Of a stretch of 64,000 nucleotides of DNA, positions 5,799-18,569 are shown in pieces. Made by a program: the position numbers and the translations under genes. Position 1 is the first letter of the stretch, and each line of letters opens with the position of its first letter. Below the pieces are notes generated by a model. It saw only the letters and a list, made by a program, of their open reading frames with translations. It did no database searches and was not told the DNA's origin. The DNA comes from Alphaproteobacteria bacterium (GTDB lineage: Bacteria > Pseudomonadota > Alphaproteobacteria > CACIAM-22H2), in NCBI GenBank assembly GCA_017308135.1, contig JAFKFM010000009.1, positions 372,001 through 436,000 on the forward strand, in the 5' to 3' direction.

Positions 5799-6860
5799 TC
5801 AGTCCGCGAAAACGCGCAAACGATCGGGCGGCAAGGCGACGGTCAGGCGCGAGCCTTCGCGCACGCCCACGTCGCGCAGCAGATTGGCCGAGAAATCGGC
5901 CTGCAAAGCCACACCGCCCGCCACACCCAATTTCGCGCGGCTGAAGGCGCCCATGAAGATCAGTTCGTCGACCGACACGTCGATGCGGTTGGCCGCACTC
6001 TCGGCGACGTTGCGCACCAGAATGTCTTCGGGGCGCACGCAGATACGCAGTTTGGCGCCGGCGACAAGCCCGCCGGGCGTATCGGCGGCCAATTCGCGCC
6101 CGCCCGCGGCGACCTTGCCCGGCGCCACGAAGGTCGCGGGCATGAAATTGGTCGTGCCGACGAAATCCGCCACGAACGGCGTGGCGGGCCGCGCGTACAA
6201 CTCGTGCGGGGCGGCGAATTGCTCGATCTCGCCCGCATTCATCACCGCGATCCGATCGGCCATGGTCAGGCCTTCTTCCTGATCGTGGGTGACCATGATC
6301 GTGGTCACGCCGAGGCGGCGTTGCAGCGAGCGGATTTCGTGGCGCAGATGCTGGCGCACGCGCGCGTCGAGCGCCGACAGCGGCTCGTCAAGCAGAAGCA
6401 AACCCGGCTGGATGGCGAGCGCGCGGGCGAGCGCCACGCGCTGCTGCTGGCCGCCGGACAACTGGGCCGGATATTTCTTGGTCTCGCCGGGCAGGCCGAC
6501 GAGGGTCAGCAATTCCTCGACCCGCGCGCGCGTATCGGCGCGCAAGGAACCTTTGGAACGCAGCCCGTAGGCGACGTTGTCGAACACGGTCAGGTTCGGG
6601 AACAGCGCGTAGCTTTGGAAAACGATGCCGAAATCGCGCTTGGACGGCGGGAAATTCGTGATGTCGACGCCGTTCTGAACGATGCGGCCCGATGTGGCGG
6701 TTTCAAGCCCGGCGATCATGCGCAGCAGCGTGGTCTTGCCGCAGCCCGAGGGGCCGAGAAGGCAGACGAACTCGCCTTGCGCCACCGTGAAACTCGCTTC
6801 GCGCACCGCATGGAAGGCGCCGAAGGACTTGCTGAGCTTGTCGACCGCCAGATGGGCCAT
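5799..6860 (-). CDS. ABC transporter ATPase, PhnT2-type (2-aminoethylphosphonate)
   Basis: Energises the adjacent permease. Walker A GPSGCGKTT, Q-loop FQSYALFP, signature LSGGQQQRVALARAL, Walker B LLLLDEP and the H-loop VTHDQEEG are intact, followed by a TOBE-like C-terminal domain. I chose ATG 6858-6860 (MAHLAVDKLSKSFG, 353 residues) because an 18-codon upstream extension runs into a 12-bp hairpin and adds residues unlike the family. Second cistron after the binding-protein gene and separated from it by that hairpin, so it is probably made in lower amounts than the binding protein. Confidence 0.88.
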   Translation of the reverse strand: MAHLAVDKLSKSFGAFHAVREASFTVAQGEFVCLLGPSGCGKTTLLRMIAGLETATSGRIVQNGVDITNFPPSKRDFGIVFQSYALFPNLTVFDNVAYGLRSKGSLRADTRARVEELLTLVGLPGETKKYPAQLSGGQQQRVALARALAIQPGLLLLDEPLSALDARVRQHLRHEIRSLQRRLGVTTIMVTHDQEEGLTMADRIAVMNAGEIEQFAAPHELYARPATPFVADFVGTTNFMPATFVAPGKVAAGGRELAADTPGGLVAGAKLRICVRPEDILVRNVAESAANRIDVSVDELIFMGAFSRAKLGVAGGVALQADFSANLLRDVGVREGSRLTVALPPDRLRVFAD

Positions 6861-6889
6861 TTCGAATACCGGACTCTTTTCAACGAAGC

Positions 6890-6917
6890 GGGGTGGCGGA
6901 GTTCCCTCCGCCACCCC
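6890..6917 (-). terminator. Intercistronic hairpin between binding-protein and ATPase genes
   Basis: A perfect 12-bp inverted repeat, GGGGTGGCGGAG (6890-6901) and its complement (6906-6917), closes a TTCC tetraloop. It lies 23 bp after the binding-protein stop and 29 bp before the ATPase start. There is no clear U-tract, so it looks like a partial terminator or mRNA 3'-end stabiliser, a common way to keep binding protein in excess of the membrane components. Confidence 0.7.
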
Positions 6918-8216: not shown

Positions 8217-9113
8217 ATGGACAATATTCTGGAACGGCTGGCGGGATTGCGCGACCGTTTGGCCCCGGCCGAACGCCGGGTGGCCGACCGCACGCTCGAC
8301 CATCCCGACGACATCACCCGTATGCCGATGAAGACGCTGGCCGCCGCCGCCAAGGTCAGCGAGCCCACGGTTTTGCGCGTCGTGCGGGCCTTGGGCCTGC
8401 GGGGCTATCCCGAGTTCAAGCTGCGCGTCGCGCAAAGCCTGGTGCGCGGCTTGCCCTATCTGCATCGCGAGATTGCACCCGGTGACGCGCTGGATGTCGT
8501 CGCCACCAAGGTGCTGGATTCGACCGTCTTCGCGATCAACGAGCTGCGCGCCACGCTCGATGCCGGCGCCATCCGCCGCGCGATCGACATCATCGCCAAA
8601 GCCAAGCGCCTGGATTGCTATGGCGTGGGGCCCGCCAACGGCTTGGCCTTCGACGCGCAACAGAAATTCATGCGCTACGGCATTCCGGCGATCGCCTATC
8701 TCGACGGGCATCTGCAAACCATGTCGGCGGCGGCGACCGGCCCGGGCACCGTCGCGCTCTGTTTTTCACATACCGGTGCCGTGAAAGACATCGTGCGCAC
8801 GGCGGAAGTCGCGTTCCAAGCCGGCGCGCAAGTCATCGCGATCACGCGGCGCGACAGCCCGCTCGCCCGGCACGCCCATGTCGTCGTGCATGTCGCGGCG
8901 CAGGAAAACACCGAGCTGACCGCCCCGATGGTCAGCCGCATCGCGCATAATCTGGTCATCGACATTCTGGTGACCGGTGTCGGCCTCGCCATGGGCGAGC
9001 CGCTGCACGAGAAACTGCGCCGGGTGAAAGACAGCCTGGCCGAGCAGCGCATGCATGAAGGGCCGCGCCCGCGCACTACGCGCAAACGCCGCCATGTTCG
9101 TAAAACTACGTAG
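8217..9113 (+). CDS. RpiR-family transcriptional regulator (HTH + SIS)
   Basis: A 298-residue sugar-phosphate-sensing regulator. Residues 1-80 form the RpiR HTH (LAPAERRVADRTLDHPDD, then MKTLAAAAKVSEPTVLRVVR). Residues 120-270 form the SIS domain, with the sugar-phosphate loop around CFSHTGAVKDIVRTAEVA. The basic tail RTTRKRRHVRKTT is unusual for the family. It is divergent from the phn-type transporter and 73 bp upstream of the enolase-superfamily gene. HexR-like half-sites downstream (9102-9152) favour control of the downstream operon; control of the divergent one is not excluded. Confidence 0.9.
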   Translation: MDNILERLAGLRDRLAPAERRVADRTLDHPDDITRMPMKTLAAAAKVSEPTVLRVVRALGLRGYPEFKLRVAQSLVRGLPYLHREIAPGDALDVVATKVLDSTVFAINELRATLDAGAIRRAIDIIAKAKRLDCYGVGPANGLAFDAQQKFMRYGIPAIAYLDGHLQTMSAAATGPGTVALCFSHTGAVKDIVRTAEVAFQAGAQVIAITRRDSPLARHAHVVVHVAAQENTELTAPMVSRIAHNLVIDILVTGVGLAMGEPLHEKLRRVKDSLAEQRMHEGPRPRTTRKRRHVRKTT

Positions 9114-9186: not shown

Positions 9187-10311
9187 TTGGCTTCGAACGC
9201 CATCGCGCGCGTCGTCGCGCATCCGCTGAAATGCGTGCTGCCCAAGACGCAGACCACCGGCCAGCGCGCCTTCCCGGAAATCGAACTCGTCATCGTCGAG
9301 GTCGAAACCGCCGACGGCATCGTCGGCTGGGGCGAATGCTTGGGCCGTACGGGCTCGCCCGCCTATGCCGCGATCGTCGAGAAATTGCTGGCCCCGCTGC
9401 TGATCGGCCAAGACTCGCGCGACATCGCTGGCTTGCACGCAAAAATGCGCCGCATCCTCACGGGACGTTCCGGCGGCATGCTGCTGGAAGCGATCGCGGG
9501 CGTGGATATCGCGCTGTGGGATATCGCGGGCAAGCGCGCGGGCGAACCGGTGTTCCGCCTGCTGGGGGGCATGTCGCGCCCGCGCATCGAAGCCTATGCC
9601 TCGTCGATCAATTGGACCGACGACAAGGGGGCGGCGGAGGAAACCGAAGCCGCCATCGCGCATGGCTTCAAGACGATCAAGGTCAAGATCGGCGCGCCGG
9701 TCGCGCGCGCCAAGGCGCGCATCGCCCAGCTTGCGAATGTCGCCAACGGCCGTGCGGCGCTGTTCGTCGATTCGAACTGGGCCTACACGGTCGACGAGGC
9801 GATCGAAGTCGCGGCCGCCTTGCGCGACAACGGCTATCGCTGGTTCGAAGAACCGATCGTGCCGGAGGATATCGCCGGTTATCGCCGCCTGCGTTCCCTC
9901 GGCTATTGCCCGATGGCGGCGGGCGAAAGCGATTTCACCGTGTGGCAGGCGCGCGATCTGGTCGCCGAACGCCTCGTCGATCTGATCCAGCCCGACGTCG
10001 CGCGCGCCGGCGGCATCACCGAAACGCGCCGCATCGCCGAACTCGCTTTCGCGCATAACGTGGGCTACGCGCCGCATGTCGGCTGGTCGGGGGCGGTGTG
10101 CGCCGCCGCCAGCATGCATCTCGCCAGCGCCATGCCGGCCTTCCGCATCTACGAATGCATGGTGTTCGACAATCCGCTGCGCGATGCGCTGACGCATCCG
10201 ATCGTCGGCGAGCGCACGATGTTGAAGGACGGCATGCTCGACGTACCAACCGCGCCGGGCCTCGGCGTCGAAGTCGACCGCAAAATGCTCGCCAAATATC
10301 GCGCAAGCTAA
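9187..10311 (+). CDS. Mandelate racemase/muconate lactonizing enzyme family protein (enolase superfamily)
   Basis: A 374-residue enolase-superfamily enzyme that abstracts a proton alpha to a carboxylate, typically dehydrating or racemising a sugar acid. The N-terminal capping domain (1-130) precedes the barrel. The KVKIG strand carries the KxK base lysines near 162, and the metal ligands follow as FVDSNW, WFEEPI and AGESDF; a C-terminal HVGWSG supplies a further histidine. The start is TTG 9187 with GGGAGG nine bases upstream. First gene of the eight-gene transport/catabolic operon, so its substrate is probably the transported sugar acid or its oxidation product. Exact substrate unknown. Confidence 0.85.
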   Translation: MASNAIARVVAHPLKCVLPKTQTTGQRAFPEIELVIVEVETADGIVGWGECLGRTGSPAYAAIVEKLLAPLLIGQDSRDIAGLHAKMRRILTGRSGGMLLEAIAGVDIALWDIAGKRAGEPVFRLLGGMSRPRIEAYASSINWTDDKGAAEETEAAIAHGFKTIKVKIGAPVARAKARIAQLANVANGRAALFVDSNWAYTVDEAIEVAAALRDNGYRWFEEPIVPEDIAGYRRLRSLGYCPMAAGESDFTVWQARDLVAERLVDLIQPDVARAGGITETRRIAELAFAHNVGYAPHVGWSGAVCAAASMHLASAMPAFRIYECMVFDNPLRDALTHPIVGERTMLKDGMLDVPTAPGLGVEVDRKMLAKYRAS

Positions 10312-10342
10312 CCCAAAAAAAATATCTCGGGAGGAAATGCAT

Positions 10343-11629
10343 ATGAACGCCGTCGCTCCAGTCCTTCGCCGCCGCGCCTTCCTTGCCGGAAGTGCGGCGA
10401 TCATCGGCAGCGCCGCCCTGCCCGCCATCGCCCAAGCCAAAACGCTGACCGCTTTCGGCCATCGCGTGCATCAGAATGTCGCCACGACAGGCCCCGGCGG
10501 CGACGCCACGGCGGCGTGGCGTCAAGCCTCCGGCTTCGACATCAATTGGGTGACGCTGGGCGACGTCAACGCGATCAACGAGCGTTTGCTGCGCGAATTG
10601 ACGCTGCCGGAAACGGCGTTCGACCTCGCCTATCTGCTCAACGGCCGCGCGGTGCCGCGCAATCTGCGGCTCTTCGAACCGCTGGATGCGTTCCAGCGCG
10701 AAGCGCCGATCGAGGATTTCGACGATATCTCGGCGGGGCTGGTCGCACCGATGCGCCTGGATGGCGCCTTGCACGCGATCCCGATGCGCCACGCGACCAA
10801 CGCGCTGGTCTATAACGAAGCCTTGTTCGAAGAACGCGGGGTCAAAGTTCCCGCCAATTTCGAGGAATTCGTCGACGCGGCGAAGAAGCTGACCTTCACG
10901 CGCCCCGACGGCACGCAAGTCTATGGCCTCGCCTTCACGGCCGTGTTCGCGTCGAACTTCCTGTCGGTCGCGCGCGCCTTCGACGGCGACTACATGACCG
11001 GCGACATGAAGGTGACGTGCGACCTGCCGTCGATGGTCAAGCCGATGGAGGCTTTGGCCGAGTTGTTCAAGGCCGGCGCCATTCCGCGCAATTTCGCCAC
11101 CGTGAACAACGAGGAAATCACGACCTGGATGCAGCAAGGCCGGGCCGCGATGACGATCAACCCCTATGCGCGTCTCGTCAGCTACAACGACCCCGCGCTG
11201 TCGCGCTATCCGGGCAAGATCAAAGCCTCGGTCATGCCGATGACGGCGGCGCTGGCGGGCAAAACGCCCTACGCGTCGACCACCGAATATTGGTCCTTCG
11301 CCATTCCGCGCAATTCCAAGAACAAGCGCGCGGCGTGGGATTTGATCCGCGCGCTGTCGTCGAAGGCGGGCACGCTCGCCCAGGCGCGCAACGGCAACGG
11401 GCCGGTGCGCGTGTCGACCTATGCCGATTCCGCCTTCGCCTCGATGTTGCCTTACGCGGCGGCGGAAGCGGTGGCGCTCAAAACCGCGCGCATCCATTTG
11501 CCCGCTTTCGACAACCAAGCCCGCGCCCACGACGTGTTCGTCGAGGAAAGCCAAGCCGCGGTGCTGGGCATGAAGCCCGCCGAGCGCGCGATGGCCGATG
11601 CCGCCCGGCGCGTACGCGCGCTGCTGTGA
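10343..11629 (+). CDS. ABC sugar-type substrate-binding protein 1 (family 1, Tat signal)
   Basis: A 428-residue precursor of a CUT1-type extracellular solute-binding protein. A twin-arginine signal RRRAFLAGSAAIIG is followed by a cleavage region near AIAQAK. It shares with the protein at 15302 the mature start FGHRVH, the FEPLD..R..APIED block, YNE..F.ERG, GNGPVR.STY and the C-terminal PAFDN..RA segment, so the two are paralogues in one operon. ATG 10343 is preferred over ATG 10337 because GGGAGG sits eight bases before it. The gene ends in TGA overlapping the GTG of the SDR gene. Confidence 0.88.
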   Translation: MNAVAPVLRRRAFLAGSAAIIGSAALPAIAQAKTLTAFGHRVHQNVATTGPGGDATAAWRQASGFDINWVTLGDVNAINERLLRELTLPETAFDLAYLLNGRAVPRNLRLFEPLDAFQREAPIEDFDDISAGLVAPMRLDGALHAIPMRHATNALVYNEALFEERGVKVPANFEEFVDAAKKLTFTRPDGTQVYGLAFTAVFASNFLSVARAFDGDYMTGDMKVTCDLPSMVKPMEALAELFKAGAIPRNFATVNNEEITTWMQQGRAAMTINPYARLVSYNDPALSRYPGKIKASVMPMTAALAGKTPYASTTEYWSFAIPRNSKNKRAAWDLIRALSSKAGTLAQARNGNGPVRVSTYADSAFASMLPYAAAEAVALKTARIHLPAFDNQARAHDVFVEESQAAVLGMKPAERAMADAARRVRALL

Positions 11630-12375
11630 GCGACACGGCCGCCAGTTTGCGCGGCAAACGCGCGTTGATCACCGGCTCGACCCAAGGGATCGGCCGGGCG
11701 ATCGCGCGTGCACTTTCTTCGGCGGGGGCGAAGGTGTTTCTGCACGGGCTTGCCCCCGCCCCTTCGGTCGAAGCCGAAATGGGTGTCGGCTTCGCCGGAT
11801 TCCTCGCCAACGATCTGGGCCAAGCGGGGGCGGCCGATGCGCTATTCGACGCCGCGCGCCAAAAGATGGGCGGGATCGACATCTTGATCCTGTGCGCCTC
11901 CGCCGAGATCCGCGAGACGCATGCCACCCTCACCGACGCGGCGGCGCAAACGCAGCTCGACGTGAATATCGCCGCGAGTTTGCGGTTGCTGACGCTGGCC
12001 GTGCCGCCGATGGAAGCGCAAGGCTGGGGCCGCGTCATCGCCATCGGCTCGGTGCAGGAGATCCATCCCAATCCAGACGCGATCGTCTACACCGCGACCA
12101 AAGCGGCGCAGACCTCGATGATGCGCACGCTGGCGCGCCACGCGGCGCGCAATGGTGTCACGTTCAATACGCTGCGCCCCGGCGCCATCGAAACGGAGCG
12201 CAACGCCGCCAAGCTCGCCGATCCGGCGTTCCGCGCGAATATCATCGCGCGCATTCCGGCAGGGCGCTTGGGGCAGCCGGAGGATTGCGCCGGCATCGCG
12301 GTCGTTTTGTGCGGCGATGCGTGCGCCTATATCAACGGTGCGGAAATCCCCGTCGATGGGGGGCTCGGACTATGA
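11626..12375 (+). CDS. SDR-family NAD(P)-dependent oxidoreductase
   Basis: A 249-residue short-chain dehydrogenase. The Rossmann motif GSTQGIGRAIA is near residue 17, the family NAG position appears as LCASAE, the catalytic Ser lies in IAIGSVQEIH, YTATKAA holds Tyr-x-x-x-Lys, and the end INGAEIPVDGGLGL is classic. GTG 11626-11628 overlaps the preceding TGA (GTGA), and its own TGA overlaps the next ATG, so it is translationally coupled on both sides. Probably oxidises the imported carbohydrate or its acid; cytoplasmic; substrate unknown. Confidence 0.9.
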   Translation: MSDTAASLRGKRALITGSTQGIGRAIARALSSAGAKVFLHGLAPAPSVEAEMGVGFAGFLANDLGQAGAADALFDAARQKMGGIDILILCASAEIRETHATLTDAAAQTQLDVNIAASLRLLTLAVPPMEAQGWGRVIAIGSVQEIHPNPDAIVYTATKAAQTSMMRTLARHAARNGVTFNTLRPGAIETERNAAKLADPAFRANIIARIPAGRLGQPEDCAGIAVVLCGDACAYINGAEIPVDGGLGL

Positions 12376-13259
12376 ACGCGCCCGGCAATCCCAACCGCCT
12401 GCATCCGATGCATCTGGCGATGATCGTGCCGGTGCAGGCGTTGCTGATCGCGACGATCTTCCTGCCGTCGATATACGTGTTCTGGCTGTCGCTGAACGAA
12501 TCGAGCTTCGGCGTGGCGCCCAAATTCGTCGGGCTTCGCAACTATGTCGAAGTGCTGAGCGATCCCTATTTCTGGCGCGCTTTCGTCAACACGGCGATCG
12601 TCATCAACATCGTCGTCTATGTCGAATTGGCGCTGGGCATGGCGATGGCGCTGCTCTTCGCGACCGGCATTCCCTTCCGCAAGACGATGATCTCCATCGT
12701 CCTTGCCCCCTACGCGATTTCGGAAGTCGCGGCGGTGGTGATGTGGCGCTTCATGCTCGATCCGTCGATCGGCATGGTCAGCCAAACCCTCACGGCCCTC
12801 GGCCTGCCGACCATCGAATGGTCGGTCGTCCCCGCCCACGGTCTGGCTGTCGTCTGCGCGCTGTCGGTGTGGCTGCATCTGCCCTTCACCTTCCTGATCC
12901 TGTACGCCGCCCGCCTTGCCATTCCCGCCGATCTATACGAGGCCGCGCGCATCGACGGCGCGTCGCCCTGGAAGCAGTTCGTCCACATCACCGTGCCGGT
13001 GCTGATGCCCGCGATCCTGGTCGCGGTGCTGTTCCGCTACATCTTCGCCTTCCGCATGTTCTCCGAAGTGTGGCTCGTCACCGGCGGCGGCCCGGCGCGC
13101 TCGACTGAAGTGCTGGCCGTTTATCTCTATCAAGAAGCATTCCGCTACAACGAATTCGGCATCGCCTCGGCGACCGGGTGGTTGATGGTGGCGGGTTCGA
13201 TCCTGCTCGCCATTCCCTATCTGCGCTCGCTCTATAAGCGGACCCTGACCGATGCGTAG
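12372..13259 (+). CDS. ABC sugar permease, MalF/UgpA type
   Basis: A 295-residue inner-membrane permease with about six helices beginning near residue 16. The EAA loop reads YEAARIDGASPWKQFVHITVP near 195-215, the CUT1 sugar-permease signature. ATG 12372 overlaps the SDR stop (ATGA), and the end overlaps the next permease by 8 bp. It forms a heterodimer with the downstream permease. No cognate ATPase gene lies in the operon, so an MsmK/UgpC-like ATPase elsewhere in the genome is likely. Confidence 0.92.
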   Translation: MNAPGNPNRLHPMHLAMIVPVQALLIATIFLPSIYVFWLSLNESSFGVAPKFVGLRNYVEVLSDPYFWRAFVNTAIVINIVVYVELALGMAMALLFATGIPFRKTMISIVLAPYAISEVAAVVMWRFMLDPSIGMVSQTLTALGLPTIEWSVVPAHGLAVVCALSVWLHLPFTFLILYAARLAIPADLYEAARIDGASPWKQFVHITVPVLMPAILVAVLFRYIFAFRMFSEVWLVTGGGPARSTEVLAVYLYQEAFRYNEFGIASATGWLMVAGSILLAIPYLRSLYKRTLTDA

Positions 13260-14082
13260 GCCGCTTTACATCAAGGCCCTGCGCGGCCTCGCGCTGCTCG
13301 CCATCGCCTTCTGGTCGGCGTTCCCGATCGCGCTGGTCGTGCTGTCGTCGTTCAAGCCGGCGCGCGATATTTTCGTCTTTCCGCCGACTTGGGCGTTTAC
13401 GCCCACTTTCGCGAATTATGCGGGGCTGTGGCTGCGCTGGCCCGATTTCTTCCGCACGCTGGGGAATTCGCTGATCGTGACGCTGGGCGCCACGGCGCTC
13501 GCGGTGATCGTCAGCGCGATGGCGGGCTACGTCTATTCGCGCAAGCGCAACCCGTATCTGGCGGGCTCGGCCTTCTTCATGATCTTCGTGCGACTGTTCC
13601 CGCCGATCGTGGTGACGCTGCCGCTGTTCCCGCTGGTCAACGCGCTGCGCCTCAACGACACGCATCTGATCCTCGTGATCCTCTACGCCACGTTCTTCGT
13701 GTCGATGGGCACGATGATCCTGAAAGCCTTCGTCGACCAGATCCCGCGCGAGTTGGACGAAGCCGCGATGGTCGACGGGGCCGGTGTGTGGTCGGTGTTC
13801 TGGCGCGTGATCCTGCCCTTGTCCGCGCAAGGAATGATCGCGGTCGGCGTGTTCGTCTTCGTCTATGCGTGGAACGAGTTCCTGTTCGCCTTCATCTTCA
13901 CGACCTCCGCCGCCAAAACCGCACCGCTGGTGCTGTCGGAAATGACCGGCGCGGTCGACGGCGTGGAATGGGGCGTGTTGTTCGCCGCCACCACGGTGCA
14001 GCTCGTGCCCGTGCTGATCTTCGTCCTGCTCGCCCAAAAATACCTCATCGCCGGCCTCACCGCCGGCGCCACGAAAGGATAG
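13252..14082 (+). CDS. ABC sugar permease, MalG/UgpE type
   Basis: A 276-residue partner permease with six predicted helices. Its start has FPIALVVLSSFKPARDIF, typical of MalG-type subunits, and the EAA loop is LDEAAMVDGAGVWSVFWRVI near 165-185. ATG 13252 lies inside the upstream permease gene, an 8-bp overlap that implies coupled synthesis of the two subunits. The next gene starts 3 bp after its stop. Confidence 0.92.
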   Translation: MRRPLYIKALRGLALLAIAFWSAFPIALVVLSSFKPARDIFVFPPTWAFTPTFANYAGLWLRWPDFFRTLGNSLIVTLGATALAVIVSAMAGYVYSRKRNPYLAGSAFFMIFVRLFPPIVVTLPLFPLVNALRLNDTHLILVILYATFFVSMGTMILKAFVDQIPRELDEAAMVDGAGVWSVFWRVILPLSAQGMIAVGVFVFVYAWNEFLFAFIFTTSAAKTAPLVLSEMTGAVDGVEWGVLFAATTVQLVPVLIFVLLAQKYLIAGLTAGATKG

Positions 14083-14085
14083 GTT

Positions 14086-14958
14086 ATGGACACGCTGACA
14101 GCACTTCGTCTGGCGAATCCCAAGCTCTCGCGCTTCTCGCCGATGAGCCGAATCATCGCGTTCGACGATTTCGACGACGGTTTCTGCGGCTACACCCAGC
14201 TCGTCGGCAATTACGAGCACACGCTGGATTCGATGCTGGCGGGCTACGCCCAGCACACGCATCCGCAGCTCTCCAACCTGGCGAATTGGGATTCCGGCAC
14301 GCACGGATCCTTCGACGGCAATTACGCGCTGAAAATCCAGACGCGCCCCAAGCGCGGCGCGCAGAATGTGGCGCTGAAGCGCCTCACCTTCCGCGAGCCC
14401 GGCCCGATCCGCCTTGAATTCTATTTCACCTTCAAGCCCGAGGCGAACGAGCTGCGCCTATCCGAAACCGACGTGCGCTCGATCGGCTTCCTCTACGATC
14501 TGCAAACCGGTTTCGAGAAGGGCGGGACGCGCGTCATGCCGCATGTGCGCTTCCTTAACGCGCTCGACGGCGAGCATTTGCAGAAATGGCAGACCAAGTC
14601 GCGCACCACCGCGATGCTGCCGCTGGGCACGGAAGGAAAGACCGTCACGCATTACCATCTGTCGCCGACGGATTGGGAGGATCTCAAGAACGGCGAGCAG
14701 AAGCTCTGCTACAACGAGATCCCGACCAAGGTGAATTGGCACTATGTGCGCTACGATTTCGATCTGCGCACGATGCGGGCGATCTCGCTTCAGTGCAACG
14801 ACCGCCAATGGGACATGTCGGGCGTCGATCCGATCGTGATCCCGGCGATGCGGAATCTGTGGTGCATGCTGAATATCTGCTTCTTCGCCGAAGCGGATAC
14901 CGACAAGCGCGCCCTCTTCTATCTCGACTCCGTCTGCCTTTCGGGAGAATTCGCATGA
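14086..14958 (+). CDS. Unrecognised 290-residue protein of the sugar operon
   Basis: I do not recognise this family with confidence. The protein has no signal peptide and no membrane segment, so it is probably cytoplasmic. It is rich in aromatic and beta-forming residues (RLEFYFTFKPE, VNWHYVRYDFDLRTM, KRALFYLDSVCLSGEF), suggesting a beta-sandwich of the concanavalin/jelly-roll kind. Conserved-looking acidic runs (AFDDFDDGFCGY, WDSGTHGSFDGNYALK) could bind sugar or metal. It sits between the permeases and a second small unknown, with an ATGA overlap to the latter, so it is a dedicated part of the pathway, perhaps a lyase, isomerase or carbohydrate-binding partner. Function unknown. Confidence 0.75.
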   Translation: MDTLTALRLANPKLSRFSPMSRIIAFDDFDDGFCGYTQLVGNYEHTLDSMLAGYAQHTHPQLSNLANWDSGTHGSFDGNYALKIQTRPKRGAQNVALKRLTFREPGPIRLEFYFTFKPEANELRLSETDVRSIGFLYDLQTGFEKGGTRVMPHVRFLNALDGEHLQKWQTKSRTTAMLPLGTEGKTVTHYHLSPTDWEDLKNGEQKLCYNEIPTKVNWHYVRYDFDLRTMRAISLQCNDRQWDMSGVDPIVIPAMRNLWCMLNICFFAEADTDKRALFYLDSVCLSGEFA

Positions 14959-15296
14959 TGCGCCAATGCGTCACCGCCATCGTTTCGCGCAACGAAGTGT
15001 GGTCGGGCAAAGCGGCGAGCGAGCCCTATGAATGCGGCTGGGCGGGCGAAGCCATCGTGTGGCTGCGCTGCCTGGGTGCGGTCAAAGGCAAGCCCGGCAC
15101 GGCAAAAGCCCGCGTGCAGATCTCGCCCGACGGCATGCGTTGGATCGACGAAGGCACGAAGCTCAAATTTCCTGCCAAGGAAGGCGCCATCGCGCATGCG
15201 CGCCTGACGAATTTCGGCAATTTCCTGCGCGTCGTCGCCGACATGCCGAAGGGCGCGTCGGCCAAAATGCTTCTCACCTTGACCCTGAAGGAGTGA
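14955..15296 (+). CDS. Unrecognised 113-residue protein of the sugar operon
   Basis: A small soluble protein beginning MMRQCVTAIVSRNEVWSGK and ending SAKMLLTLTLKE. It has no signal peptide or membrane helix. Alternating hydrophobic strands (VWLRCLGA, ARVQISPDGMRWIDEG, NFLRVVADM) suggest a compact beta-sandwich. ATG 14955 overlaps the previous stop as ATGA, and binding-protein gene 2 begins 5 bp after its TGA. This tight coupling to the 290-residue unknown suggests the two work together, possibly as a complex. I cannot assign a function. Confidence 0.72.
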   Translation: MMRQCVTAIVSRNEVWSGKAASEPYECGWAGEAIVWLRCLGAVKGKPGTAKARVQISPDGMRWIDEGTKLKFPAKEGAIAHARLTNFGNFLRVVADMPKGASAKMLLTLTLKE

Positions 15297-15301
15297 CCGC
15301 C

Positions 15302-16573
15302 ATGCGTATCACCCGCCGCACGCTGCTCGCCGGGACGGCCGCCGTTTTGGCCGCCCCCGCCGTTCACGCCCAAGCCACGCGCCGCCTGAACGTGTTCGGG
15401 CATCGCGTCCACAAGACCGTCACCGCCGGCCAAGGCGGCGACATCATCGAGGCGTGGGCCAAGGAAAACCGCGTCGACGTCGAATGGGTGACGTTCGACA
15501 CCGGCCCCTTGCAGGAACGCCTGTTCCGCGAAGCCTCGCTCGCCGAAGGCGCCGTCGATGTCGGTTTCATCCTGAACACCCAGGCGACACCGCGCATCGC
15601 GAGCCTGTTCGAGCCGCTGGACGATTTCATGCGTCAGGCGCCGATCGAAGATAAGGCCGACGTGTTCCCCGGCATGCTGTCGGGCCTGACGGTACAGGAC
15701 AAGCTCTACGGCTTGCCCTTCCGCCACGCGTCGTCGGGCATGCACTACAACGAGGAATTCTTCCAGGAGCGCGGCCTGTCGGGCGCGCCCAAGACGATCG
15801 AAGACCTGGCCGAATTCGCCAAGCGCACGAGTTGGACGCGCAACAACCAGCCGGTCGTCGGCCTGGTGCTGCCGGGCGTGACCTACCCCAACGTCATCGA
15901 CATCGCGCGCGCTTGGGACGGCGAGTTCATCACGCCGGACATGCGCGTCGTCGCCAACGAAGCGCCGATGGTCAACGCCATCACGCTGCTGCGCGATCTG
16001 TTCGTCGCCGGCGCCTTCCCGCGCAATTTCGCCTCGATCAGCACCGAGGACGTGAATGTGTGGATGCAGACGGGCCGTGCGGCGATGGTCATCAACTCGA
16101 TGGGCCGCAACTCGATCTACAACGATCCCGCGCGCTCGCAGTTCCCCGGCAAGTTCAAGACGACGACGATCCCGATCTCGCGCGAATTCGCCAACAAGTT
16201 CGAAGTGGCGCCCGCGAAGGTCGAGTTCTGGGGCATGGCGATCCCCAAGAACACCAAGAACAAGGAACTGGCCTGGGGCCTGATGCGCCAGATGCTGTCG
16301 AAGGAGTCGACGCTGAAGGCCGCGCTGAACGGCAACGGCCCGGTGCGCAACTCGACCTACGACGATGCGCGCATCAAGGAAAAACTGCCCTTCGCCGAGG
16401 AGGAGCGCAAAGTCCTGCGCGTCGCGCGCGTGCCGATGCCCGCCTTCGACAACGCGCAACGGGCGGCCGATCTGTTCAAGGAGGAGGCGGAAGCCGCCAT
16501 CCTGGGCATGAAGACGCCGCGCGCGGCGATGGACGACCTGACGCGGCGCACGCAGCGCCTGTTGCAGGGCTAA
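15302..16573 (+). CDS. ABC sugar-type substrate-binding protein 2 (Tat-like signal)
   Basis: A 423-residue precursor, paralogous to the binding protein at 10343. It opens with ITRRTLLAGTAAVLAAPAVHAQ, a twin-arginine-like export signal. The mature protein starts with FGHRVHKTV and includes FEPLDDFMRQAPIED, LPFRHASSGMHYNEE, GNGPVRNSTY and MPAFDNAQRAADLF. It is the last gene of the operon, so one permease pair has two binding proteins, perhaps for related substrates or anomers. TAA 16571-16573 overlaps the stop of the convergent deacylase gene (CTAA). Confidence 0.88.
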   Translation: MRITRRTLLAGTAAVLAAPAVHAQATRRLNVFGHRVHKTVTAGQGGDIIEAWAKENRVDVEWVTFDTGPLQERLFREASLAEGAVDVGFILNTQATPRIASLFEPLDDFMRQAPIEDKADVFPGMLSGLTVQDKLYGLPFRHASSGMHYNEEFFQERGLSGAPKTIEDLAEFAKRTSWTRNNQPVVGLVLPGVTYPNVIDIARAWDGEFITPDMRVVANEAPMVNAITLLRDLFVAGAFPRNFASISTEDVNVWMQTGRAAMVINSMGRNSIYNDPARSQFPGKFKTTTIPISREFANKFEVAPAKVEFWGMAIPKNTKNKELAWGLMRQMLSKESTLKAALNGNGPVRNSTYDDARIKEKLPFAEEERKVLRVARVPMPAFDNAQRAADLFKEEAEAAILGMKTPRAAMDDLTRRTQRLLQG

Positions 16574-17571
16574 AGCAGCGCGTCGCGCGTGCTGGGCGCG
16601 CCGAGATGGGCGACGACGTCGCCCGCCTCGGTCCGCGCCGGCACGCGGCGGCACATCACGATGCCGGGCGCTTCGAAACGGATCGTTTCGGGGGCCCGGT
16701 CCGGCCGCTCGATATCGTGCAAGCGCCCCGCGATATCGCCCGCCGCCACGCTTTGGCCCAGCGACGTCGCGGGCTCGAACAAGCCCCGCCCGGGCGAGCG
16801 CACGAAATGACGCGGCTCGACCGCCAGAAGCCGCACGGGCTTGACCAAAGGCTTGGGCACCGTGACGCCCGCGAAAGCGAGGAAGCGCGAAACGCCGTCG
16901 CGCGCCACGCTCAACGAATAGGGCGTCAAGCTGCCCGCCCCGCCCAGCTCCGCCGAGATCGCGACCTTGCCCGCCGATTGCGCCGCCGACAAAAACGTGC
17001 CGATGGCTTGGGGCTTGGCCACCACGCCCGCATCGGGGGCGCCGAAGGCGATCAACGCGTCGAGCGTGCGCGCGCGTAAATCCTTGTCCGCCGGCAGCCG
17101 CGCCCAGGCGCAGGGCATGTATTCCAGCGTGCGCCCGCCCGAATGCAAGTCGAGCACGTAGTCGGCGAGCGGCAGCAGCAGCCGCGTGATGCCTTCGGCG
17201 ATTTGCGCGGTCGGCGTGCCGTCGCCCTTGCCCGGAAACACGCGCGCGAGATTGCCGCCATCGACCGGCGAGGTGCGCCGCCCGATCGCGGCGGCGGGCG
17301 CGTTCGCCGCCGGCACGATGATCAGGCGCCCGCGCAAGGACGACGGCTCGATATCGCGCGCGAGGTCGGACAGCGCCACCTGGCCTTCGTATTCGTCGCC
17401 ATGCACGCCCGCCGTCGCCAGCACCGTGGGCCCGGGGGCGCCATTGATCACGATCACCGGAATGACGATCTGGCCATAGGCGGATTCGTCGTGCGACCAC
17501 GGCAAACGCATGGCGCCGAAAACCCGGCCGAGCCGTTCCAGCGGGATATCGAGTTCGGCGGGGCCGCTCAT
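16570..17571 (-). CDS. Succinylglutamate desuccinylase/aspartoacylase family hydrolase
   Basis: A 333-residue zinc-dependent M14-type deacylase that releases an amino acid from an N-acyl form. Metal and catalytic motifs are GVHGDEYEG near 56 (His and Glu ligands) and VLDLHSGGRTLEYMP near 137 (His ligand). The second half is the family's beta domain. It follows the PLP enzyme gene with an ATGA overlap, suggesting that the deacylated amino acid or amine is then processed by that enzyme, or the reverse. N-acetyl-diaminobutyrate deacetylase (DoeB-like) is one possibility; substrate not determined. Confidence 0.85.
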   Translation of the reverse strand: MSGPAELDIPLERLGRVFGAMRLPWSHDESAYGQIVIPVIVINGAPGPTVLATAGVHGDEYEGQVALSDLARDIEPSSLRGRLIIVPAANAPAAAIGRRTSPVDGGNLARVFPGKGDGTPTAQIAEGITRLLLPLADYVLDLHSGGRTLEYMPCAWARLPADKDLRARTLDALIAFGAPDAGVVAKPQAIGTFLSAAQSAGKVAISAELGGAGSLTPYSLSVARDGVSRFLAFAGVTVPKPLVKPVRLLAVEPRHFVRSPGRGLFEPATSLGQSVAAGDIAGRLHDIERPDRAPETIRFEAPGIVMCRRVPARTEAGDVVAHLGAPSTRDALL

Positions 17572-18569
17572 GCGTCACCTTCGAACACGCCGGCGTGAAC
17601 GAACAAGCCGGGTGCGCCGCCCGAATGCAGGAACAGCGCGTCGGCGGTTTTCGGAATGCGCCCGTCGGCGAGACCGGCGATCAAGCCCGCCAGCGCCTTG
17701 CCGCTATAGACCGGATCGAGCACCAGCCCTTGCGTGCGGCCCGCAAGGCGCACGGCGGCGATGGATTCGGGCGACGGCACGCCATAGCCGGGGCCGGTCA
17801 TCTCGATCATGTCGAAATCGTTCTCGGCAAGGCGGGTGGAAATGCCGAGCACCTCGGCGCCGCGCGCGGCGACATCGACGATCCACGGCCGCAAACGCGA
17901 TGCCGGTTGCTGCACCGATACGCCGACAAGGCGCGGGCCAAGCCCGCGATGTTTGAAGCCCAGCGCCAGCCCGGCGAGCGTCAAGGACGAGCCGCAGGCG
18001 ACGACCATATGCGTCGCCGTATCGCCGCCCTGTTCGAGAATTTCGTCCGCCCCTTGCGCCCAGGCGGCGACACCCAAACCCGCCGTGTCGCCGGTGAGTT
18101 GGACGATCAGCGGCTTTCGGCCCTTGGCACGCGCCGCGTCCGCGATCTCGTCGAGCTTGGCGCGGATCGCCGGGTCCCACGGATCGGTCAAATCCGTGAA
18201 TGTGACCTCGGCACCGAAGACGTGATCGAGCAGCAGATTGCCGATGCGCGGGCTGCCGGGTTTTCCGCGCAACAACAGCGCGCAACCCAAGCCGATCTTG
18301 GCGGCCGAGCCCGACAGCGCGCGGCAGAAATTCGATTGCGCGGCGGCGGTGGAAATCACCATGTCCGCGCCCTTGGCTTTGGCGTCGCCCAGGATCAATT
18401 CGATCTGGCGCAGCTTGTTGCCGCCGAACGCCGCGCCGGCCAGATCTTCGCGCTTGATCCGCAACGATGCCGCGCCGATCGCGGCGGCAAGGCGGGGTGC
18501 CGCCTCAATGGGCGTGGGGAAACGCGCCAAATCGACGCGCGGGAGGACCGTTTTCGCCAGGGCTTCCAT
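17568..18569 (-). CDS. D-cysteine desulfhydrase / ACC-deaminase-like PLP enzyme
   Basis: A 333-residue fold-type II PLP enzyme. The lysine that binds PLP lies in RIKREDLAGAAFGGNKLRQ near residue 52. The STAAAQSNFCRA segment and the phosphate-binding VACGSSLTLAGLALG stretch near 190 match the D-cysteine desulfhydrase/ACC deaminase family. Members eliminate H2S or ammonia from D-cysteine and related amino acids; several act on other D-amino acids, so substrate is uncertain. First gene of a two-gene operon with the deacylase (ATGA at 17568-17571). It is divergent from the small membrane protein at 18657. Confidence 0.85.
   Translation of the reverse strand: MEALAKTVLPRVDLARFPTPIEAAPRLAAAIGAASLRIKREDLAGAAFGGNKLRQIELILGDAKAKGADMVISTAAAQSNFCRALSGSAAKIGLGCALLLRGKPGSPRIGNLLLDHVFGAEVTFTDLTDPWDPAIRAKLDEIADAARAKGRKPLIVQLTGDTAGLGVAAWAQGADEILEQGGDTATHMVVACGSSLTLAGLALGFKHRGLGPRLVGVSVQQPASRLRPWIVDVAARGAEVLGISTRLAENDFDMIEMTGPGYGVPSPESIAAVRLAGRTQGLVLDPVYSGKALAGLIAGLADGRIPKTADALFLHSGGAPGLFVHAGVFEGDA

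Follow-up and report, generated by a model that had tools for sequence, protein, structure and literature searches.

We describe an operon that probably couples a CUT1-type ATP-binding cassette (ABC) importer, equipped with two solute-binding proteins of differing specificity, to the enzymes that open an oxidative, non-phosphorylative route through a sugar acid. It lies in a 64,000-nucleotide stretch of an alphaproteobacterial genome (assembly GCA_017308135.1, contig JAFKFM010000009.1, positions 372,001 to 436,000), hereafter the window; the genome carrying it is designated G000, so that the window corresponds to G000:C9:372001-436000. The operon is a sugar-uptake/sugar-acid operon of a known kind, and its hallmark is an uncharacterized, obligate pair of genes, U1 and U2. 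A preliminary description based on the sequence alone had delineated eight genes between 9187 and 16573; all were confirmed at these coordinates, on the plus strand and joined by overlaps or short gaps, with Pfam supporting the families. The genes are as follows.

9187..10311, plus strand: ENO, probable acid-sugar dehydratase of the mandelate-racemase subgroup (enolase superfamily; TTG start; Pfam MR_MLE N- and C-terminal domains)
10343..11629, plus strand: SBP1, solute-binding protein, accessory paralogue (Pfam SBP_bac_1/8; own clade of 19)
11626..12375, plus strand: SDR, short-chain dehydrogenase/reductase, probable sugar 1-dehydrogenase (GTG start; Pfam adh_short_C2)
12372..13259, plus strand: permease 1, CUT1-type ABC, UgpA/MalF-like (BPD_transp_1; UgpA best model; EAA loop)
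13252..14082, plus strand: permease 2, CUT1-type ABC, UgpE/MalG/GlcU-like (BPD_transp_1; GlcU/UgpE best models; EAA loop)
14086..14958, plus strand: U1, DUF6772 protein modeled as a concanavalin-like beta-sandwich (PF20562, E 1.6e-125)
14955..15296, plus strand: U2, 113-residue predicted beta-sandwich protein, obligate partner of U1 (sub-threshold DUF6385; AlphaFold2 model)
15302..16573, plus strand: SBP2, solute-binding protein, core paralogue (Pfam SBP_bac_1/8; own clade of 26)

Read from the sequence, the junctions range from an 8-base overlap between the permease genes to a 31-base gap between ENO and SBP1, with 4-base overlaps at SBP1/SDR, SDR/permease 1 and U1/U2 and gaps of 3 and 5 bases at permease 2/U1 and U2/SBP2, respectively. 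The closest named relatives are Tagaea sp. contigs (Alphaproteobacteria, Rhodospirillales), in which the operon proteins are mostly 92-100% identical. The arrangement is more than a chance assembly, as dozens of loci in Alphaproteobacteria carry orthologous sets of these genes. The cassette is conserved in about 40 loci, the commonest order around the pair being SBP2, a GntR/FCD regulator, a divergent ENO, permease 1, permease 2, U1 and U2.

The most constant feature of these loci is the U1-U2 pair itself. U2 directly follows U1 in all 45 loci examined (a few of which are duplicate records of one genome, e.g., L037 and L091); one of these loci belongs to an actinomycete, and another is a further copy within the genome studied here. 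The preliminary description had left both proteins unrecognized. This no longer holds for U1, a clear member of Pfam DUF6772 (PF20562; 418.5 bits against a gathering cut-off of 27), for which the partner and the operon context are described here; U2 is remotely DUF6385-like, scoring 20.8 bits against DUF6385 (PF19912), below the gathering cut-off of 26.8. As the DUF6385 match was sub-threshold in 23/23 U2 members scanned (E up to 1, best 6.7e-6), U2 appears to be at most a remote relative of that family. DUF6772 is rare, occurring in 3/289 genomes of the class and 3/398 of the phylum (own genome counted), and in 11 of the 23 genomes of the family. An independent search with U2 retrieved the same 11 family genomes, with every copy beside U1, and the same 7 plasmid records. 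No paper on DUF6772 was found in the library searched, and to our knowledge the family has no known function; it can now be linked to U2 as its obligate partner, and further to an importer of the sugar type and to oxidative sugar-acid enzymes.

Structure prediction places U1 among concanavalin-like beta-sandwiches (AlphaFold2, pLDDT 82.5, pTM 0.86). Searching the PDB with this model by Foldseek returned L-type lectins, alginate lyase and ulvan lyase (E 2e-5 to 1e-3). While its predicted sandwich thus resembles concanavalin A-like lectins and polysaccharide lyases (Emp46/47, alginate lyase vAL-1, ulvan lyase), U1 differs from them by low TM-scores, about 10% identity, the lack of a visible signal peptide and its own set of invariant residues. 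The U2 model (pLDDT 95.8, pTM 0.87) matches generic beta-sandwiches, carbohydrate-binding modules among them. No signal peptide was seen by eye in either protein, and profile searches of U1 and U2 against PDB sequences gave chance matches only. The best BFVD match of the U1 model in Foldseek was an uncharacterized Gordonia phage protein (A0A7L7SJ40, E 5.5e-13, TM 0.6-0.7); at the sequence level, U1 gave nothing above chance against phages and PHROGs.

The 44 U1 sequences compared (41 of them distinct, with identities as low as about 35%) share 21 invariant positions occupied by polar or aromatic residues: R99, E111, K117, E119, R149, R155, N158, W197, C208, N210, E211, T214, K215, N217, W218, Y220, D226, N238, D239, N263 and R275. 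These are candidate catalytic residues. Furthermore, E111, Y113, T115, K117 and E119 alternate on one predicted strand and should therefore share one face, comparable to the ligand-facing side of carbohydrate-active proteins with this fold. On the basis of these alignments and models, we favor the reading that U1-U2 acts as an enzyme on the imported compound. Alternatively, the pair could be a cytoplasmic sugar-binding accessory with a lectin-like fold, sensing or regulating uptake without enzymatic activity; among PDB entries, the U1 model indeed matches L-type lectin domains best, U2 resembles beta-sandwiches that include carbohydrate-binding modules, and the pair is always beside a transporter. 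We consider this rather doubtful, because invariant charged residues as numerous as those of U1 would be more usual in an active site and because the pair is kept while the transporter type changes, which argues against a transporter subunit. A fuller version of the enzymatic reading can be put forward tentatively, as one possibility: U1-U2 would represent a new family of carbohydrate-active enzymes, two-component and intracellular, working as glycosidases or lyases with a concanavalin-like fold. They would carry out the initial cleavage of sugars brought in by exchangeable transporters and supply an oxidative acid-sugar route, to which some lineages would add an N-acylated amino-sugar-acid branch.

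The genes that accompany the pair indeed vary among loci, comprising one of three types of CUT1 importer or an MFS carrier, ENO, SDR and lactonases. The window's own transporter (type A) comes without an ATPase. Type B, found in Chelativorans, Microvirga, Aureimonas, Rhizobium and some Tagaea, consists of another binding protein and other permeases, usually with its own UgpC-type ATPase. A third CUT1 set accompanies the second DUF6772-U2 pair of the genome (L016, G000:C10:143000-162999), in an operon that also lacks an ATPase and encodes a GntR regulator, a binding protein, permeases, an aldo-keto reductase, a fuconolactonase-like amidohydrolase and a zinc alcohol dehydrogenase; this pair adjoins UPF0261 and phosphoenolpyruvate-hydrolase-like genes. 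The MFS carrier is that of Nonomuraea gerenzanensis (L075), where U1-U2 has the carrier and beta-lactamase-family hydrolases on one side and a LacI regulator on the other, in a region unannotated in the record.

The window's importer combines SBP_bac_1/8 binding proteins with two BPD_transp_1 permeases bearing EAA loops, as expected for the CUT1 type. As the preliminary description had recognized, the two binding proteins are paralogues (45% identity over 423 aligned columns). They fall into two supported clades (SH-like approximate likelihood ratio test [SH-aLRT] values of 96 and 99), and since each clade spans many families, the duplication is old. The same description had considered both to be of the twin-arginine translocation (Tat) type; twin-arginine motifs are readable in both (RRRAFLAG and TRRTLLAG), but SBP2 reaches only 16.0 bits against a cut-off of 22.7 for the Pfam TAT model and SBP1 gives no match, so that export via Tat is likely rather than established. 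Of the 27 sufficiently complete loci lacking a type-B transporter, 17 (16 when one duplicate record is discounted) have both SBP1 and the SDR and 10 have neither, with no discordant case; in some of the loci the two genes are not neighbors. This co-occurrence is suggestive, although short of significance. Because SBP1 comes and goes with the SDR, the two binding proteins probably bind different ligands rather than sharing one, and we read SBP1-SDR as an optional accessory module for a second ligand. The co-occurrence thus predicts that two different ligands are served by one permease pair. Ligand assignment from solved relatives of the binding proteins was dropped, as the matches were weak and to mixed sugar binders.

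The enzymes support, by family membership and gene context, a putative oxidative route leading from sugar to lactone, aldonate and 2-keto-3-deoxy acid. ENO belongs to the mandelate-racemase subgroup by its MR_MLE N- and C-terminal domains, K-x-K motif, three metal ligands and D/H pair. Its catalytic set (K165, K167, D195, N197, E221, E247, H297 and E323) is invariant in 34/34 cassette copies, and D270 is kept in 33 of them, the exception being D270N. The SDR catalytic residues S142, Y155 and K159 are likewise kept in 26/26 cassette copies. Window-type and type-B SDRs form a single clade (SH-aLRT 94) that includes SDRs paired with an SMP-30 lactonase. In Rhizobium sp. Q54 (L074), the cassette reads UgpC ATPase, permeases, binding protein, SMP-30 lactonase, SDR and FadR, followed by ENO, U1 and U2; in genome G563 (L093), it reads ATPase, permeases, binding protein, SDR and GntR, followed by ENO, ENO, U1, U2 and SMP-30. 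Since the window's SDR shares a clade with type-B SDRs, among them those of cassettes carrying an SMP-30 lactonase and ENO, it is likely a sugar 1-dehydrogenase, and the presence of the lactonase with the same SDR clade and ENO in homologous cassettes makes the logic of an oxidative route recognizable. The tandem pair of enolase-superfamily genes ahead of U1-U2 and SMP-30 in L093 (7411-9656) suggests two dehydration/isomerization steps in that locus. In the whole G000 genome, 43 stretches match the window's ENO, i.e., several dozen paralogues, some in tandem (C10:301649-305166), and mandelate-racemase-type enzymes are unusually abundant in this organism.

It could be argued that nothing more than a known acid-sugar pathway (for galactonate, arabinonate, mannonate, galactarate or the like) is encoded here, in an ordinary operon joined by unrelated hitchhikers, given that ENO aligns to several acid-sugar dehydratase models and solved dehydratases. 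It aligns over most of its length, with the K-x-K motif, metal ligands and D/H pair, to 4ggb (a galactarolactone cycloisomerase) and to 5olc (galactonate dehydratase). It is nevertheless remote from both, and by curated cut-offs it falls outside the described isofunctional groups, lying far below those of the arabinonate (199 bits against 650), galactonate (198 against 311), mannonate, talarate/galactarate, gluconate and rhamnonate dehydratase models. Moreover, U1-U2 and the transporter recur with ENO across families and an actinomycete keeps U1-U2, so these genes are not hitchhikers. We therefore hold an ordinary operon to be unlikely; in line with the mismatch to standard routes pointed out initially, no described pathway with such a gene set was found.

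None of the eight genes encodes an ATPase, as the preliminary description had stated, and the UgpC/MsmK-type ATPase that it proposed to look for has a stand-alone counterpart in the genome. G000 has 13 OB_MalK matches, and in the loci examined all MalK-like ATPases but one sit with permeases. The exception is a stand-alone MalK-type gene (L022:8110 to about 9156; G000:C6 about 160109-161155) flanked by glutathione S-transferase and HU genes, with no permease nearby. Among the genome's MalK-like ATPases, its product is the nearest (66%) to the ATPase encoded directly after U2 in L045; its orthologues in relatives are 74-98% identical, lying beside HU in most Tagaea. Its isolation, its similarity to a cassette ATPase and the extension of its orthologues to genomes without DUF6772 make it a plausible shared ATPase, and the best candidate to power the importer. 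ATPases shared by sugar importers are documented, namely MsmX in B. subtilis and MsmK in streptococci (PMC5730181, PMC4519317 and PMC7658222). Such systems resemble the present one in their SBP_bac_1-type binding proteins, MalF/MalG-type permeases with EAA loops and an ATPase encoded outside the operon, with a stand-alone MalK-type gene elsewhere; the present system differs in having two ancient binding-protein paralogues per permease pair, in being alphaproteobacterial and in that ATPase sharing is deduced.

The operon is immediately preceded by a regulatory gene.

8217..9113, plus strand: MurR/RpiR-family regulator, HexR-like (Pfam HTH_6 and SIS; directly upstream of the operon)

It scores 263 bits against the HexR model, below the cut-off of 296, keeps its position in L037, L086 and L091 and is the sole match of its kind in the genome. 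Taken together, we propose that SBP2 and, where present, the accessory SBP1 would supply a single pair of permeases with two related sugar compounds, energized by the shared MalK-type ATPase encoded on G000:C6. In the cytoplasm, U1, as a carbohydrate-active enzyme of the concanavalin fold, would act with its small partner U2 on what has been imported, the SDR would oxidize the SBP1-derived aldose at C1 to the lactone, and ENO would dehydrate the aldonate to the 2-keto-3-deoxy acid. The HexR-like regulator may sense a downstream keto-deoxy acid.

Several observations weigh against this model. The changes behind the SBP1-SDR link that are independent and fall on supported branches number only 3 (sign test, p 0.25); the link is further weakened by L037 and L091 being one genome. 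The PDB matches of U1 have low TM-scores (0.3-0.4), which weakens the enzymatic role and leaves room for lectin-type binding. The C6 ATPase also occurs in Tagaea genomes without DUF6772 and is hence not dedicated to this importer. ENO was not found in the cassettes of L042, L054 and L065, whose contigs are cut on one side. Finally, while the operon shares with non-phosphorylative oxidative sugar pathways an SDR and a mandelate-racemase-type enzyme, and homologous cassettes add the SMP-30 lactonase, it lacks a lactonase, an aldolase and a semialdehyde dehydrogenase, and it has the obligate DUF6772-U2 pair and, optionally, two further enzymes discussed below; among homologous cassettes, L074 and L093 alone combine a lactonase with SDR and ENO.

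The two optional enzymes are encoded convergently to the operon.

16570..17571, minus strand: M14 deacylase, DoeB-like (DoeB model sub-cut-off; best solved relative 6twm)
17568..18569, minus strand: pyridoxal phosphate (PLP) enzyme of the D-cysteine desulfhydrase/CuyA/1-aminocyclopropane-1-carboxylate (ACC) deaminase family (family models; K52 invariant)

The initial reading of the unit as an operon for uptake and catabolism that lacks an ATPase stands, but the unit is larger than was thought, with the RpiR gene upstream and the M14 and PLP genes linked to it in relatives. The M14 protein scores 288.2 bits against the DoeB N-acetyldiaminobutyrate deacetylase model (TIGR02994; equivalog cut-off 402.7), has the zinc-site residues H57, E60 and H143 and is closest to solved DoeB (6twm). 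The PLP protein is closest to D-cysteine desulfhydrase and CuyA, keeps the PLP lysine, K52, and is below all equivalog cut-offs (D-cysteine desulfhydrase, CuyA and ACC deaminase); by these models it is a member of the wider family only. These genes raise the question of whether the main substrate is instead an N-acylated amino-sugar acid (an N-acetylaminoaldonate, formally an N-acetyl-D-alpha-amino acid), which M14 would deacylate and the PLP enzyme would convert, by elimination of ammonia, into the 2-keto-3-deoxy acid that would also arise, through the SDR/ENO branch, from the neutral sugar. The M14 protein is closest to N-acetyl-L-2,4-diaminobutyrate deacetylase, the PLP family acts on D-amino acids, and two branches would suit two binding proteins. 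In Elioraea and L042, as in the Tagaea relatives, both genes accompany the cassette and M14 adjoins SBP2; the PLP gene occurs in cassettes L039-L042, L055, L065, L090 and others, without M14 in L055 and L090, and in L065 with a PRK09237-type amidohydrolase and an M14 similarity. However, both are absent from most cassettes, including all Bosea, Chelatococcus, Roseomonas and type-B loci, and therefore cannot explain the core function, a role for which they were rejected. In addition, the substrate of DoeB is L-configured, and we know of no amino-sugar activity for the M14 or PLP family, which also counts against such a substrate. An amino-sugar acid as the main substrate thus seems unlikely, and a branch for N-acylated amino-sugar acids that draws on both enzymes is speculative. 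Searches of the library for N-acetylglucosaminate and cog3964 yielded nothing usable.

On the other side of the regulator, minus-strand genes between 3429 and 7987 encode a HAD-like protein, a long permease, an ATPase and a binding protein, reading like a phosphonate/iron-type ABC system. They are a gene set separate from the operon, and the ABC ATPase at 5799-6914 was set aside as a partner for the importer, since it lies on the opposite strand with a permease and a binding protein of its own.

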